NCBI GenBank assembly: GCA_902760865.1
Contig: CACWID010000004.1
Coordinates: 62,001-126,000, forward strand
DNA length: 64,000 bases
Direction of reading: 5' to 3'
Source: an uncultured Bacteroidales bacterium
GTDB lineage: Bacteria > Bacteroidota > Bacteroidia > Bacteroidales > Muribaculaceae
Positions 8,874-19,210 of the stretch are shown here, in pieces (positions within the stretch are counted from its first letter, which is position 1; each line of letters starts with the position of its first letter). The notes below the pieces were generated by a model. It worked only from the letters and a program-made list of their open reading frames with translations, was not told where the DNA came from and searched no databases. The position numbers and the translations under genes are program-made.

Positions 8874-10184
8874 TCATTTTGTTCCAGGGATCAGCTCGAG
8901 AATCTGCTTGATGGGCATGCACAGGTCGTTGGCCTCGAACGAGCGGCCATTGGCAAGGATGCTCTCGGCACACTGTACCATCGCCGGATAGGCGGCACGC
9001 AGCAGGTGGTTGGCATAGATGACCACATTCACGCCCCACTCTGCCAGCTCGTCCTCGGTAATGTGGTTATAGGTCGTGGGCACGACAACCAGCGGAATGT
9101 TGGGTTCCTTCTCGCGGAAACGCATGCAGAATTCCTTGATGTCATCACCGCTCTTGTTCTTGGAATGAATCATGATTCCGTCTGCACCGGCCTGAACGTA
9201 AGCAAAGCAACGCTCCAGAGCGTCCTCAATGGATTTTCCTGCAATAAGGCTCTCGCAGCGGGCGATGATCATGAAGTCTGACGTGATTTGTGCTTGTTTT
9301 CCTGCACGTATCTTGGCGGAAAAGCCCTCGATGCTGTCCTGGGTCTGTATGGCATCGGTCCCGAAGAGGGAGTTCTTCTTCAATCCCACCTTGTCCTCGA
9401 TGATGATGGCCGAGACGCCAAGGCGCTCCAGGGTCCTCACCGTGAATACGAAATGCTCAGGTTTACCACCCGTGTCACCATCGTAGATGACAGGCTTGGT
9501 AGTCACTTCAAGCGCATCGTTCAAGTCATGCAGACGTGTTGTCAAGTCCACCGCCTCGATGTCGGGCTTGCCCTTGCTGGTCGAGTCGGTCAGCGAGCTG
9601 GCCCACATGCCGTCAAACTCACGTTTCATATTGTTGACCGTAACCGAGGTATTCTCGATAATCAGGCCCGTCAAGCCATTGTGGGACTCACAGATGCGGA
9701 CAATCTTCTTGGCATTGATGAGGCGGCGAAGGCGCTTCAGGCGCACGTCGGGCGTGGTGCCGATTTCCTTGAGGCGCTCGTTGAGCATGGTTGAGGAGAT
9801 GCCCTTGGTGTAAGGCACGTCGATGACCTTGCCACCCCACTCTGCCAACTTGTCAATGACCTGCTGGCGGGTCTTGGCCTGGACACCATCCTTCCAGTCG
9901 TCGCCATGGACCACAAAGTCGGGCTTTATTCTTTCCAAGTTGGGACGGTAGTCAAGAGTCGTCTGAGGAATGACCTCAGAAACGCCCTTCAGATTGCTTA
10001 CGACCAGCGAACGCTGCTCGTAGTTCAGATAAGGCAGACGCTTGTAACTGGCAATCGCCTCGTCGGTCAGCACACCGACAACCACACGGCCATATTTGGA
10101 AGCCTCGTGCAGGATGTTGAGGTGACCAGGATGAATGATGTCGGCACTCATGCCAACATAAACAGTTTTCGTTTCTTTGTCCAT
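8874..10184 (-). CDS. aepX: Cytidylyltransferase-phosphoenolpyruvate mutase fusion
   Basis: 436 residues in two domains. Residues 5-135 are a nucleotidyltransferase of the HxGH class ([17 protein letters not shown], with HPGH at 18-21) and the [12 protein letters not shown] ending seen in cytidylyltransferases. Residues about 147-430 are PEP mutase, with the catalytic loop [10 protein letters not shown] at 263-272 and DGDTGG at 235-240. The mutase makes phosphonopyruvate from PEP. The N-terminal domain would activate a phosphonate as a CMP ester. This domain order is known from AepX of Bacteroides capsule loci. Its neighbours supply the decarboxylase, reductase and LicD transferase, so the whole activation and transfer path is present. 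Confidence 0.94.
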
Positions 10185-10207
10185 TGTATTATTCTTATTT
10201 ATTGTAT

Positions 10208-11275
10208 TTATTCTCTTATTGATTTCACGGCGGCAAGAATCACGTCAGGGTCAATGGCAATCGGCGTATTCTTGGCTCGCTCGAGATTGATACCTCTAGC
10301 CACCGTCATATCGTCAAAATCCCTGTTCTTGTCAAAGCCCAACCCCAATCGGGAGATGTAGTGTTTCATCACCGCAAAAGGTGCGTCTTGCACATTAAGC
10401 ATAGAACGCAATCGTTCCATCTTCTCCACATGGTGGCCATAGTCACTGCCCATATACCTGCTGGCATCACCCTCAAGATTGTACTTCAAGAAGAAGGGGA
10501 AGGTCAAAGCCACCGCATGGCCGTGAGGGTAGCTATATTTGGAAGTCAAGGTATAGGACAACGCGTGGGGAACGGTGGTGCGGGTTATGTTAATGGCACG
10601 GCCAGCAGCATTAGCGCCGATCAAGAGTGCATCCCTGTCAGACGGCGAGAGATGCTCCTTCTCGAGCAACGGGTATATCATGCTGATTGCCTCAAGCGCA
10701 TGATGATCAGACTCGACAGTGGCGTTGATGTTCCAATAAGCCTCGATGGCCTGAGCAAGGGCATCAAATCCGGTGCAGGAGGTCAGGTAGCGGCTATTAT
10801 TGTAGGTGAAGGGCGGATACAAGATGACAGAGTCTGGCAAGATTGAAGCATCGCTGATGGAATGCTTGACGCCGTCAATATAGCAGACAGCAAACTGGGT
10901 GGACTCTGCTCCGGTGCCGGCAGTAGTAGGGATGGCCAGCAGACGGATATCGAGATGAGCATAATGACGGATCAGTTTTGCCATATCCATCACGCTACCG
11001 CCACCGACGGCGACAACAACGTCAGGTTCCGTGCGTTGGAGCAATGAAACACCCTTCTGCACATCCTCCATCTTGGGATTCTCGGTAAAGTCGTCAAAAT
11101 CGACAACAGTCATTTGACAGGAGAGCGCCTCAACCAAGTCCTTCGCGCCACAAGCCTGATAGGACCTGTGACCATGGACCACGAGAGCAGATCTGGCATC
11201 CCCGACAAAAGAAGAGAAAGCATTCTTGAAATCTTCTTCGGTCTGGCAGCACTCTATATATTGTTCCATTTCCAT
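10208..11275 (-). CDS. Iron-containing alcohol dehydrogenase, likely phosphonoacetaldehyde reductase
   Basis: 355 residues with type III (Fe) alcohol dehydrogenase features: the NAD-binding [47 protein letters not shown] and the metal-ligand region with [10 protein letters not shown]. Genes of this family next to PEP mutase and phosphonopyruvate decarboxylase encode reductases that turn phosphonoacetaldehyde into 2-hydroxyethylphosphonate, as in phosphinothricin and fosfomycin pathways. Here it takes the place of the aminotransferase AepZ found in Bacteroides fragilis 2-aminoethylphosphonate loci; no transaminase is in the operon. The family call is firm; the substrate is inferred from context. 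Confidence 0.87.
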
Positions 11276-15358: not shown

Positions 15359-16306
15359 CTATTTCAGATATTGTTCAATATTGTATCGGGGCCGGTGCTT
15401 GCCCTCGGTGTAAATGCGCCCGATGTAGGCGGCGATGATGCTCATGCACACCAGCAGACAGCCGCCGACAAACCAGATGGACAGCATCAGCGATGCCCAG
15501 CCCTGCACTCCGCGGCCCTGGCACAACGCCACGATCACATAGGCCAGGATGCCCAGGCTGATGAGCAGAAACAGCACACCCAGATAGAAGATGAGCCGCA
15601 ACGGCTTGACGCTGAACGAGGTGACGCCGTCAACAGCCAGCGAAAGCATCTTGCCGAGCGAGTATTTACTCTCGCCCGCTTGACGTTCCAGCCGGTCATA
15701 GGACACCGAGTCGGTCCGGTAGCCAATCAAGGGCACAAGACCGCGCAGGAACAAATTGCGCTCCTCATAGCGGCACAACGCGTCCACCGCACGACGACTC
15801 ATCAGCCTGAAGTCAGCGTGGTTATACACCGTGCGGGCGCCCATGGCGTCCATGAAGCGGTAGAACAGCCGCGCCGTCGTGCGCTTGAACACCGAGTCGC
15901 TGGCACGCCCGCGCCGCACCCCATAGACGATGTCACAGCCGTCCCGATACTTCTCGAGCATATCGGGAATGGCACGGATGTCGTCCTGCAGGTCGGCATC
16001 GATGGTAACGGTGACGTCAGCGTCCTCACGGGCCGTTTCCAGGCCCGCCATGAGGGCATTCTGGTGATCGACATTGCCCGCCAGCTTGAGGCCGCGCACA
16101 CGCCGATTGGCCTCACAGTAGCCGGCAATCAGCGGCCACGTCTCGTCACGCGAGCCGTCATCGACATAGAGGATATAGCTATTCTCACCTACAAGGCTGT
16201 CACGCATCATGCCGCCAAGCAACGTGAGCAACCGTTGGTTAGTCTGCGGCAGCGCGTCCTGTTCATTATAGCACGGCACCACAATAGCTAAAACCGAGCA
16301 AGCCAT
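15359..16306 (-). CDS. Family 2 glycosyltransferase, GtrB/DPMS type with two membrane helices
   Basis: 315 residues. The N-terminal GT-A domain has VVPCYNEQDALP, YVDDGSRDETW, GNVDHQNALMAGLE and the metal-binding IDADLQDD. The C-terminus has two transmembrane helices near 233-258 and 268-292 and ends in GRIYTEGKHRPRYNI, the usual ending of bactoprenol-phosphate glucosyltransferases such as GtrB. It likely makes polyprenyl-phosphate-linked sugar for glycan modification. It is the first gene of the minus-strand phosphonate/glycan operon and has a very good promoter upstream. A second gene of the same broad type is at 51385. Confidence 0.9.
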   Translation of the reverse strand: MACSVLAIVVPCYNEQDALPQTNQRLLTLLGGMMRDSLVGENSYILYVDDGSRDETWPLIAGYCEANRRVRGLKLAGNVDHQNALMAGLETAREDADVTVTIDADLQDDIRAIPDMLEKYRDGCDIVYGVRRGRASDSVFKRTTARLFYRFMDAMGARTVYNHADFRLMSRRAVDALCRYEERNLFLRGLVPLIGYRTDSVSYDRLERQAGESKYSLGKMLSLAVDGVTSFSVKPLRLIFYLGVLFLLISLGILAYVIVALCQGRGVQGWASLMLSIWFVGGCLLVCMSIIAAYIGRIYTEGKHRPRYNIEQYLK

Positions 16307-16404: not shown

Positions 16405-18186
16405 TTAATCAGTTATCTCTATAAAATTGAAGATGTCTCTCATATCATCAGGTAATTCTGCGCGTGGTTCTATGCTCATGGGGTAAATCGACAAGGGCGC
16501 CTCCTCAAAATGCTGAATATTGGGGTATGCACGTTTGAGAGCACGTTTGCGCTCCAGCTCAACATATTCACTTTGAGCCGCATTTGCAGACCAACAAAGT
16601 ATAAATAAATCAGCAGTATCAATATATTCTTTTATTTTCAGCGGGAAAATATCTCCAGGTTTTAAATAATCGCGATCAAAGAAATAATCTATACCTTGGG
16701 CATCATAAGCACGTGCAATATATTGGACTTTTGATTCATCTTGATGGGCGTATGATATAAATATCTTTTTATACTGACGAGTAATCACGGGAGCTGTGTT
16801 GTACTCATAGGGTTCGTATGTTGTCAGTTCGGTCAAAAAATCCAGTTCACCCAACAATGCACCATCAACAGACAAGAACACTTCACCCCAGATTTGATCC
16901 TTGTTATAATCTTTAGGTATTTCAACATAAAAATCCGCTTTGGTGTAAAACCCTTGCCATATGATAGCCTTGTGAGGTGTTATTACTTCAACTCCTTGCA
17001 TTCTTATACTCACATCAACAACTGACCCCAATTTCAGTTTGAAATTCAGCGGCGAATAGGCACGTTCTTCTGTTCTTTTGTCAAATTTTTCCGCATCGTA
17101 ACAGACAGAATCACGATCATTCTCCTTGTATAAATATACTTGAACCATCATCCCAGTGCCTTTTCTTATCTGACGAGGTGCAAAAACTGAAGAAAATACA
17201 TCATCTGATTTTACCCCAAGGAGTCTTCTTATAAAACTACCCTTTCTGGGCATATACGTAATTCTCATAGGATTATATCCTCCAGCAATTGGAACAGGCA
17301 TAAGGAGCAGATGGTCTCCATGCCGTACATCATAATCCAACAGACTTTGTTCAAGTCCATCTTCATCTTCAAAGTCCAATACATCCGGCTCATCGGAACC
17401 CCTTAATTGACCAAGCACATACCGTAAAAGGGTTCCACTTCTATCCTTCTCGGGAAGTTCGTAATGACAGACAATTCTATTAATGAAATCCCGAATAGTC
17501 TCATTCGGATTTCTTATTAGCAATCCAACTTTCTTATATGAAGGGCCTTCTATGGTCAAGTCAATAAAAAAACTTTCATTATTTGGGTATAGACCACTAC
17601 TCAACGCCAAATAGTCAATGAATTTAATCAGGTCAAGACATTGTAATTTTTCCCTGATGTGAAAATATAGTTCTATTTCATAATGTTCAGGGCTGTTAAC
17701 AAGGAATGTAGCTATTTCTCGTGTCATAACCTCTGCTACTTTTTTCAAAGGAAGGTTTGCTAACTCAGCTCCAATGCATGGAAAGGCAATAGAACTAAGA
17801 TTGAGAGCCCGAAGCAAGTCAAAACACTTGTCGACCAAATGACGAAGAATGTATTCATCGGTTTCTTGTGTGTTTGTTAACTGTTCTTCATTAAAAAAGA
17901 CAGGTAACCTTCCACAGTTATGAGTAAGACAGTGAAATATGAACTTTTGTTTCATCGCCCCTGCTGAAGACACCACAACATCGCCAAGTTTTGCAGGCAA
18001 TTTCTTCTGGGCATCTTTACGAACGATTTCACCACCTGCCCACAGAATAGCTTCGGCTACTCCTTCCTCCATTGAAATGCCAATGTCGTCAGAACTAACT
18101 ATCACCTCTGTCTTAGATGATAGAATATTACCACCAAAGATAATTGTTAAAGTAGAACGATTAAATTTATATCTAAGTCGTTTCAT
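16405..18186 (-). CDS. Macro domain-ubiquitin-like-TIR fusion, candidate antiphage/NAD-signalling protein
   Basis: 593 residues. Residues 12-175 look like a macro domain: LTIIFGGNILSSKTEVIVSS, EEGVAEAILWAGGEIV, KLGDVVVSSAG, FPCIGAELANLPLKKVAEV. Residues about 205-303 resemble a beta-grasp ubiquitin-like domain ending LLDYDVRHGDHLLLMPVPIAGG (split here as 282-300 then GG at 302-303). Residues 328-455 form a beta-rich module (VFSSVFAPRQIRKG) of a kind I associate with bacterial TIR proteins. Residues 472-593 are TIR: KKIFISYAHQDESKVQY, DRDYLKPGD, LFILCWSANAAQSEYVELE; Glu545 aligns with the NADase glutamate. TIRs cleave NAD and macro domains bind ADP-ribose-type ligands, so one chain could make and sense the signal. 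The DNA is visibly AT-richer than its neighbours, suggesting transfer. No partner gene is adjacent. Confidence 0.8.
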   Translation of the reverse strand: MKRLRYKFNRSTLTIIFGGNILSSKTEVIVSSDDIGISMEEGVAEAILWAGGEIVRKDAQKKLPAKLGDVVVSSAGAMKQKFIFHCLTHNCGRLPVFFNEEQLTNTQETDEYILRHLVDKCFDLLRALNLSSIAFPCIGAELANLPLKKVAEVMTREIATFLVNSPEHYEIELYFHIREKLQCLDLIKFIDYLALSSGLYPNNESFFIDLTIEGPSYKKVGLLIRNPNETIRDFINRIVCHYELPEKDRSGTLLRYVLGQLRGSDEPDVLDFEDEDGLEQSLLDYDVRHGDHLLLMPVPIAGGYNPMRITYMPRKGSFIRRLLGVKSDDVFSSVFAPRQIRKGTGMMVQVYLYKENDRDSVCYDAEKFDKRTEERAYSPLNFKLKLGSVVDVSIRMQGVEVITPHKAIIWQGFYTKADFYVEIPKDYNKDQIWGEVFLSVDGALLGELDFLTELTTYEPYEYNTAPVITRQYKKIFISYAHQDESKVQYIARAYDAQGIDYFFDRDYLKPGDIFPLKIKEYIDTADLFILCWSANAAQSEYVELERKRALKRAYPNIQHFEEAPLSIYPMSIEPRAELPDDMRDIFNFIEITD

Positions 18187-18377
18187 ATCTTGTTTGTTTT
18201 ACGCCATAAACAAGTTAGCAGAAGAACAAATCGAAAAACACAAAAGCGCACATGTAACTGACCATTAATTGATTATCAATAATAAACTCAAATTTCCACA
18301 TGCACAACTTGTGCACAAATTTCGCCAATATGTTTGATGTATGCAAGAATTCATCCGTAAATTTCAAGAAAGGATAT

Positions 18378-18424
18378 AAACAATGAATTCTTTTTTGTTC
18401 CGTATTCGGCTTGCACTATCTTTG
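18378..18424 (+). promoter_or_regulatory. Duplicated promoter, upstream copy
   Basis: -33 TTG (18395-18397), 19-base spacer, -7 TATCTTTG (18417-18424), inside a 47-base block starting AAACAATGAATTC that recurs 83 bases downstream. Confidence 0.75.
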
Positions 18425-18460
18425 TCTTACAGCGAAGATAGGCAGCGCTTCAACATAAAA

Positions 18461-18506
18461 AAACAATGAATTCTTTTTGTTCTGTATTCGCCTTGAACTA
18501 TCTTTG
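18461..18506 (+). promoter_or_regulatory. Duplicated promoter, downstream copy
   Basis: Same block with three substitutions and one missing T. -33 TTG (18477-18479), 19-base spacer, -7 TATCTTTG (18499-18506). The start codon at 18533 follows 26 bases later. Together with the upstream copy it fills most of the 346-base gap after the TIR gene. Confidence 0.8.
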
Positions 18507-18532
18507 CAGTCAAAATTGATTGGACGATAGCA

Positions 18533-19210
18533 ATGATCGACATCGTGATAGACCCTAGGATCCTGGAGGCGTGTCCCGAGACACGCATCGGGCTCATCAG
18601 CGCGACGGTAGTGAACGAACCGACGTGCGACTCGCTGTGGGCAGAAATCGAGGCGGCTGCCGAGGAAGTCAAGCAACGCTACGAGCTGCTCGAAATCAAC
18701 CAGCGGCCTGCCATCGCCGCCACACGGCACCTGTACAAAAAGCTGGGTAAAGACCCGAGCCGATACCGCGTAGCGAGTGAGGCCCTGTGCCGCCGCATCA
18801 TCCGCGGCCTGGGCATCTATCGCCTGACGACGCTCATTGATGTCGTCAACCTGGTTTCGATCAAGAGCGGCTACCCCATCAGCGGCCTGGACGGCGACCG
18901 CATCGCCGGCAACTCGCTCACGATGAGCGTGGGAACAGCCGAGGATGTGTATAACGGCATCGGGCGTGGCTTGCTCAACATCGAGGGCATGCCCGTGTAT
19001 CGGGACGCCGAGGGCCCCATCGCCACCCCGACAAGCGACGAGGAACGGACCAAGTTCACCGAGCAGACCGTCAAGGCCCAAATCAACATCAACGCCTTCG
19101 CACCCGAGATGCCCCTTGAAGAGGCTGTAGAGTGGACGGCGGAACTACTCAAGAAATATGCCCACGCCACAGACGTGGAGACAAAGGTCTATGTTCCAGT
19201 TAGGAGTTAG
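18533..19210 (+). CDS. B3/B4 tRNA-binding-domain protein
   Basis: 225 residues matching stand-alone B3/B4 domain proteins, related to the editing region of phenylalanyl-tRNA synthetase beta subunit. Recognisable blocks are INQRPAIAATRHLYKKLGKDPSRYR, SEALCRRIIRGLGIYR, LVSIKSGYPISGLDGDRI and the ending TKVYVPV. Such proteins are thought to bind or edit mischarged tRNA or bind amino acids; function here is not established. It has two tandem promoters upstream and a short heptad repeat at its 3' end, and lies 49 bases before tsaC, another tRNA-related gene, so the two may be co-transcribed. Confidence 0.85.
   Translation: MIDIVIDPRILEACPETRIGLISATVVNEPTCDSLWAEIEAAAEEVKQRYELLEINQRPAIAATRHLYKKLGKDPSRYRVASEALCRRIIRGLGIYRLTTLIDVVNLVSIKSGYPISGLDGDRIAGNSLTMSVGTAEDVYNGIGRGLLNIEGMPVYRDAEGPIATPTSDEERTKFTEQTVKAQININAFAPEMPLEEAVEWTAELLKKYAHATDVETKVYVPVRS

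Follow-up and report, generated by a model that had tools for sequence, protein, structure and literature searches.

A probably horizontally acquired macro, ubiquitin-like and TIR domain chimera in a Bacteroidales genome: a candidate single-gene immune effector

A single gene in a stretch of 64,000 nucleotides from an uncultured Bacteroidales bacterium of the Muribaculaceae (contig CACWID010000004.1, positions 62,001 to 126,000, assembly GCA_902760865.1; this whole stretch is called the window) encodes a chimera of known parts: a macro domain, a ubiquitin-like (Ubl) part, a conserved module and a TIR domain. The chimera itself is real; its presumed function in defence and the roles of its macro and Ubl parts are proposals of ours. 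With about even confidence we read it as an immune effector of TIR type, encoded by a single gene that came in by horizontal transfer; it would have arisen by domain shuffling, and its macro and Ubl parts may be sensing or regulatory. Three sources meet in the chain: a macro domain from a clade linked to TIR, a Ubl whose free relatives are linked to the type VI secretion system (T6SS), and a cassette of module plus TIR. Genomes and loci are referred to by G and L numbers; G000 is the window's own genome, 95% complete in 61 contigs. The gene, P0001, is one intact open reading frame (ORF) as judged from frame and translation; the sequence-only reading of this DNA had given the 593-residue product correctly and had named no strand. 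Its parts are as follows.

16405..18186, minus strand: whole gene, macro – Ubl – module – TIR, 593 amino acids, stop codon included
17590..18186, minus strand: macro domain with C-terminal extension, residues 1–199 (Pfam Macro; macro tree clade)
17278..17589, minus strand: Ubl, residues 200–303, end ...VPIAGG (homology to free Ubls with E2-like neighbours)
16789..17277, minus strand: conserved module, residues 304–466 (no Pfam match; kept together with TIR)
16408..16788, minus strand: TIR domain, residues 467–593 (Pfam TIR_2; TIR tree)
16552..16554, minus strand: codon of Glu545, the conserved TIR glutamate in alignment A1

When residues 1–199 were scanned, Pfam Macro was found at residues 37–154 of the whole protein (E = 1.4e-14), and TIR_2 covers residues 475–555 (E = 1e-14; 55.5 bits versus a cut-off of 28). 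Neither the Ubl stretch nor the module matched any Pfam family; the former is recognized by homology and the latter by conservation. The domain order proposed from the letters alone is thereby borne out. Glu545, which had been put forward as a plausible catalytic residue, is indeed the conserved TIR glutamate, invariant across the four module/TIR proteins of alignment A1 (the first row begins at residue 302, and Glu545 is position 244 of that row). We take its place to be that of the glutamate in the catalytic TIR motif. The sequence thus offers both what is expected of a TIR NADase or cyclase effector, a TIR profile match and the conserved glutamate, and we infer that the domain cleaves nicotinamide adenine dinucleotide (NAD) through Glu545.

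The macro domain belongs with others that are fused to TIR. In the macro tree it forms one clade (100/100) with the macros of five macro-TIR proteins, apart from 11 lone macros (L144 and L146, of 13 macro loci, gave no row). Two-domain macro-TIR proteins of Bacteroidales (L002, L003, L004, L154) have macros 37–45% identical to that of the window, and the L002 gene lies in the same genome, about 64 kb from the chimera gene. The NAAN and GAI(H/K) letters seen in the lone macros, which we assume to be part of the macro hydrolase pocket, are missing from all six TIR-linked macros; two of these six (L153, L154) do keep GGG. The window macro reads VSSDD and MEEGVAEAIL where lone macros show NAAN and GGGV(D/A)GAIH, so that these MacroD-type hydrolase loops were not found in it. 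Because the loop letters are missing and the clade is TIR-fused, a reader role fits this macro. According to the available part of PMC11204291, the macro effector of macro (TM-macro ThsA) Thoeris binds ADP-ribose (ADPR) and imidazole adenine dinucleotide (IAD), which makes a TIR-made ligand plausible here too. The earlier proposal that producer and sensor share one chain has gained a TIR-fused macro clade without the lone-macro letters; that the macro does the reading is a prediction.

A serious rival, though an unlikely one, is that the macro is a built-in brake which hydrolyses or captures the products of the TIR and so averts self-poisoning, rather than sensing. Macros stand N-terminal to two different TIR lineages, the solved-structure matches include MacroD-type chains besides PARP14 (no ThsA chain was among these matches), and PMC9503650, in the portion available, predicts that macro domains have a regulatory part in TIR systems. 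The absence of the lone-macro letters throughout the TIR-linked clade speaks against a brake, as does the ligand-binding effector role of the macro protein in macro Thoeris (PMC11204291, in part). The lone macro-TIR proteins (L002:973-2106, L003, L004, L154:558-1640) are themselves a small family with varied gene surroundings; among the open-licence literature matches listed, and in the text available from them, we found no description of such proteins.

Residues 304–593 form a cassette which recurs in other Bacteroidales with differing N-termini while the TIR is kept. The module is conserved alongside TIR both in alignment A1 and in a plasmid protein of the cyanobacterium Allocoleopsis franciscana (L129:8500-10032; 27% identical). 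The N-terminus is a Ubl in L034 (G108), giving the same Ubl-module-TIR order as in the window, a second TIR plus a coil in L038 (G122), an unassigned part in L039 (G129), and a transglutaminase with a kinase in L042 and L044 (by Pfam) and in L046, L158 and L079 (by reading only). The cassette profile matched seven loci in named genomes, three being contigs of G108, G122 and G129, and 25 of the 297 genomes of the family sample. In that sample, module and TIR occur together in five genomes (G000, G304, G154, G197 and, in two pieces, G145), G025 has the module alone, and the remaining matches lie in the TIR region.

The TIR tree lacks four of the 17 extra TIR loci, from which no row was obtained. 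In it the cassette TIRs form a group at 91/83, and those of the macro-TIR proteins fall in a different part from the window TIR, with weak separating forks (79/61). From these separate positions, the macro of the chain appears to come from a TIR-linked lineage other than the one that supplied its TIR. The nearest relative of the window cassette differs between trees, which conflict: the TIR-only tree joins it with L038 (93/81), the cassette tree with L034 (81/81).

The ubiquitin-like assignment of residues 200–303 rests on homology. The stretch is 32–51% identical to the 11 other Ubl rows of alignment A4, and its beta-grasp resemblance is weak by sequence: Pfam YukD was touched by two of the 12 Ubl members (best E = 0.0016), the family profile matched ubiquitin weakly and in the C-terminal strand only (best single-ubiquitin chain E = 0.073), and hhalign gave a probability of 62.8% over 22 columns. 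A whole-chain E of 1.6e-15 to polyubiquitin was set aside, because nine repeats, each worth about 5 bits, inflate it. We call the stretch ubiquitin-like because its free relatives adjoin E2 genes and mostly E1 and JAB genes as well, an argument from homology and not from a model; for the same reason, the E2 genes beside the free relatives, a chance resemblance was dropped. The proposed end near Gly302-Gly303 held. An exposed C-terminal Gly is lacking: Gly303 is internal and followed by 290 residues.

Seven of 101 genomes of the genus match the Ubl: that of the window, G108, and five in which the protein is free (G002, G048, G105, G113, G138). The family sample gave nine matches among 297 genomes, eight as free proteins, with G002 and G048 already in the genus count, and an order-level search added free Ubls in G740, G402 and G596. 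The free proteins, from 14 distinct genomes in total, are about 95–115 residues long (the G048 copy is split across two contig ends) and all end in Gly, as ...AG or, in G296, as ...PG. An E2-type ORF with an HPN...CL motif adjoins the free Ubl in all 14; with the E2 profile, human E2 enzymes of solved structure score about 3e-4. In the eight longer loci, a JAMM-type motif and a ThiF-type E1 are present in six and a RING-like motif in five; L017 and L157 lack all three, and their contigs end nearby on that side, while L156 is without the RING-like motif. By Pfam, ThiF is strong in these loci (1.5e-50), with JAB (0.0072) and RING (0.0087) both below cut-offs. PADLOC and NCBIfam scans of the relatives gave nothing for the free Ubl or E2, and mainly TIR, macro, kinase, transglutaminase and E1.

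Several of these loci are T6SS loci. That of G002 has TssC, Hcp (TssD) and VgrG by Pfam, and TssC is also present in the G402 and G596 loci; the match to VipA/TssB is weak (3e-4), and an ATPase of ClpB/ClpV type and a DUF4280 protein (PAAR-like by reading) are present. Of the 11 free-Ubl genomes at genus and family level, nine gave a TssC match, versus none of 10 others (Fisher p = 2e-4, descriptive only, as the others, G000 and G108 among them, were chosen as carriers of an embedded Ubl, a cassette or a macro-TIR protein). The two genomes missed, G105 and G199, are 83% and 78% complete.

The sequence-only reading had allowed for conjugation of the internal Ubl, which is not borne out in the host. 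The E2 profile matched five of the 101 genomes of the genus, the same five that have a free Ubl (it was built from four of them), and was negative in G000 and G108; E1 was not searched in G000. The absence of a cognate E2 from a 95%-complete genome is a strong but not a final argument. TssC gave no match in G000 or G108 either. Absence of Pfam JAB from G000 was discarded as evidence, since the control G048, which has the gene, was missed too. The branches of the two embedded Ubls are 1.6–2.5 long in the tree versus 0–0.2 for main-type free Ubls, as would be expected if contacts with E1 and E2 had been lost. Since neither E2 nor TssC was matched and the Ubl has diverged, we argue that the embedded copy is no longer a conjugated tag and consider its conjugation in the window's genome unlikely.

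That it is still a substrate of E1, E2 and JAB, either conjugated or cut by JAB after ...AG into macro-Ubl and module-TIR halves, accordingly has only a slim chance. The retained tails (VPIAGG in the window, LAGG in G108) and the free relatives, with their C-terminal Gly, adjoining E2 and, at most longer loci, E1 and JAB-type genes, would suit it; the missing E2 and TssC matches and the strong divergence of both embedded Ubls stand against it. Another possibility, improbable in our estimate, is that the Ubl is an integrated decoy: in genomes lacking the T6SS-linked Ubl pathway, the immune protein would bear that pathway's modifier as bait, and its recognition, cutting or modification by foreign machinery or effectors would trigger NAD loss, with the macro as a second, ADP-ribose-sensing input. 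That the window's Ubl and the one in G108 were captured independently was not upheld; a single capture fits (p-AU 0.52) and is not demonstrated either.

The gene is foreign to its surroundings, as had been noted from its AT-richness. Its GC content is 0.384 and that of third codon positions (GC3) 0.316, versus 0.55–0.62 and 0.77–0.85 in eight measured neighbouring genes. All four domains are alike in GC (0.37–0.40); this even AT-richness indicates that the gene probably arrived ready assembled. The site was compared in 30 loci, out of 87 genomes with a B3/B4-Sua5 match among 101 searched. The B3/B4-Sua5 pair is present in all 30, and the chimera gene adjoins it only in the window's own locus and is lacking in the 29 relatives. 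Composition and absence at the same site together agree with the earlier description of a lone gene of foreign composition, and horizontal acquisition is the most likely origin. The immediate neighbourhood is as follows.

18187..18532, no strand: gap between the chimera gene and the divergent B3/B4-domain gene (from neighbouring ORF positions)
15359-16306, minus strand: glycosyltransferase gene, name read from the translation
18533-19210, plus strand: divergent B3/B4-domain gene, name read from the translation

In whole-protein searches no genome but the window's gave a full-length match, and any match at all came from 12 of 101, 46 of 393 and 89 of 395 genomes; the samples overlap and a single query sequence was used, so distant full-length relatives could be missed. 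Within these samples, the earlier statement that no known system has this domain order finds no second full-length copy to contradict it. Ten plasmid records matched, none covering 80% of the query. Phage records and viral contigs gave no match, the viral scans using short patterns of limited reach, and on that ground an origin from a phage or virus was rejected.

Occurrence in one genome only, and the relative G145, in which a macro-TIR gene (L153) and a module-TIR gene (L079) are both interrupted, would suit a fusion that is non-functional or in transition, or else a chimera made by the assembly. We hold this to be rather improbable: the gene is a single intact frame inside a 167.6-kb contig, with base composition even over the four domains, and the Ubl-module-TIR order is shared by G108.

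On the favoured reading of an acquired immune effector, the TIR would be the enzyme, cleaving NAD through Glu545, and would stay switched off as long as the N-terminal part has sensed neither infection nor stress. For the macro we predict a ligand of ADP-ribose type, which could be a protein carrying the modification or a product of the TIR itself; in the latter case activation would be fed forward. The Ubl would be a fixed adaptor, docking on a target or mimicking one, with no conjugation in this host. Activation would then lead to NAD depletion and a stop of growth, as in abortive infection. If active, the protein would have a reader of ADP-ribose, a TIR enzyme and a captured ubiquitin-like modifier on a single chain, and would be a compact system for testing how TIR immunity is switched and whether bacterial Ubls lend themselves to reuse as immune sensors.

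Several points weigh against this reading. The full architecture is confined to one 61-contig, 95%-complete assembly. There is no recognizable defence island: the neighbours, read by eye from their translations and without a PADLOC scan, are cell-envelope and housekeeping genes (surface polysaccharide, Lpx, Sua5). The PADLOC profiles SAVED_TIR and bSEFIR match the TIR region only, and the viral searches, which use short patterns of limited reach, returned nothing. The macro could be an eraser. Finally, long Ubl branches are not peculiar to embedded copies, as the free Ubls of distant T6SS loci (G296, G596, G402) have branches of 1.4–4.0.

Some bacterial TIR proteins act on hosts, and at least one named relative is labelled as a ruminant-stomach metagenome-assembled genome. 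Ordinary signalling, or action on an animal host, instead of phage defence nevertheless seems very improbable for the chimera; cassette relatives adjoin SIR2- or STAND-like genes (by reading) or caspase-family genes (by annotation), which fits intracellular conflict systems.

Among known systems, macro Thoeris, often called type II, likewise links a TIR enzyme with a macro that reads a ligand. There, two separate proteins are used, one of them TM-macro ThsA (PMC11204291, in the part available), whereas the chimera is one chain with a Ubl and a module in addition. Membership was rejected for this reason and because no ThsA match was found in PADLOC up to E = 10; no transmembrane prediction was made. 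SAVED-TIR, STING-TIR, bSEFIR and TIR-NLR effectors resemble the chimera in having sensor and TIR in one chain, yet they share no sensor domain with it, the profile matches being limited to TIR. The Bacteroidales macro-TIR two-domain proteins have macros of the same clade, but lack both Ubl and module, and their TIRs occupy other parts of the TIR tree. The bacterial operons of Ubl, JAB, E1-like and E2-like genes described in the accessible portion of PMC1779556 resemble the neighbourhoods of the chimera's Ubl family; the chimera differs in that its Ubl is internal and its genome has no E2 match.

The chimera also led to a gene set of Ubl, E2, E1 and JAB, mostly with a RING-like protein too, in T6SS loci of Bacteroidales. 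Six such loci (L018, L035, L036, L037, L155, L156) carry a Ubl with C-terminal Gly together with E2-like, ThiF E1, JAMM-motif and, except in L156, RING-like genes, and judged by these motifs and profiles may hold a complete ubiquitin-like pathway inside a secretion machine. No description of the set was found among the open-licence literature matches listed, as far as their available text goes, nor in the available portions of PMC10781749, PMC1779556, PMC3482391 and PMC7159879; novelty is thereby unproven. In those portions, PMC1779556 (Iyer 2006) describes the Ubl-JAB-E1-E2 operon type with no mention of a T6SS link, and PMC10781749, on the T6SS of Bacteroidota, has two mentions of ubiquitin, both concerning the EccD/TssN fold. 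The T6SS locus of G002 further contains a DUF4280 domain fused to Gln_amidase, a papain fold (L017:12425-13876), possibly a secreted effector.

Further cassettes deserve mention. Transglutaminase-like and mostly kinase-like N-termini are found in L042, L044, L046, L077, L079 and L158 (by Pfam in L042 and L044 only), and L077 and L079 adjoin sigma-factor-like and C39-like genes by reading. The cyanobacterial plasmid protein has a TIR-like N-terminus before the shared module and TIR, with two caspase-family genes nearby. In the window itself, positions 8874-11275 on the minus strand carry what reads as a fused PEP mutase/cytidylyltransferase and an iron alcohol dehydrogenase adjoining LicD- and polysaccharide-type genes, which would suggest a surface glycan decorated with phosphonate.
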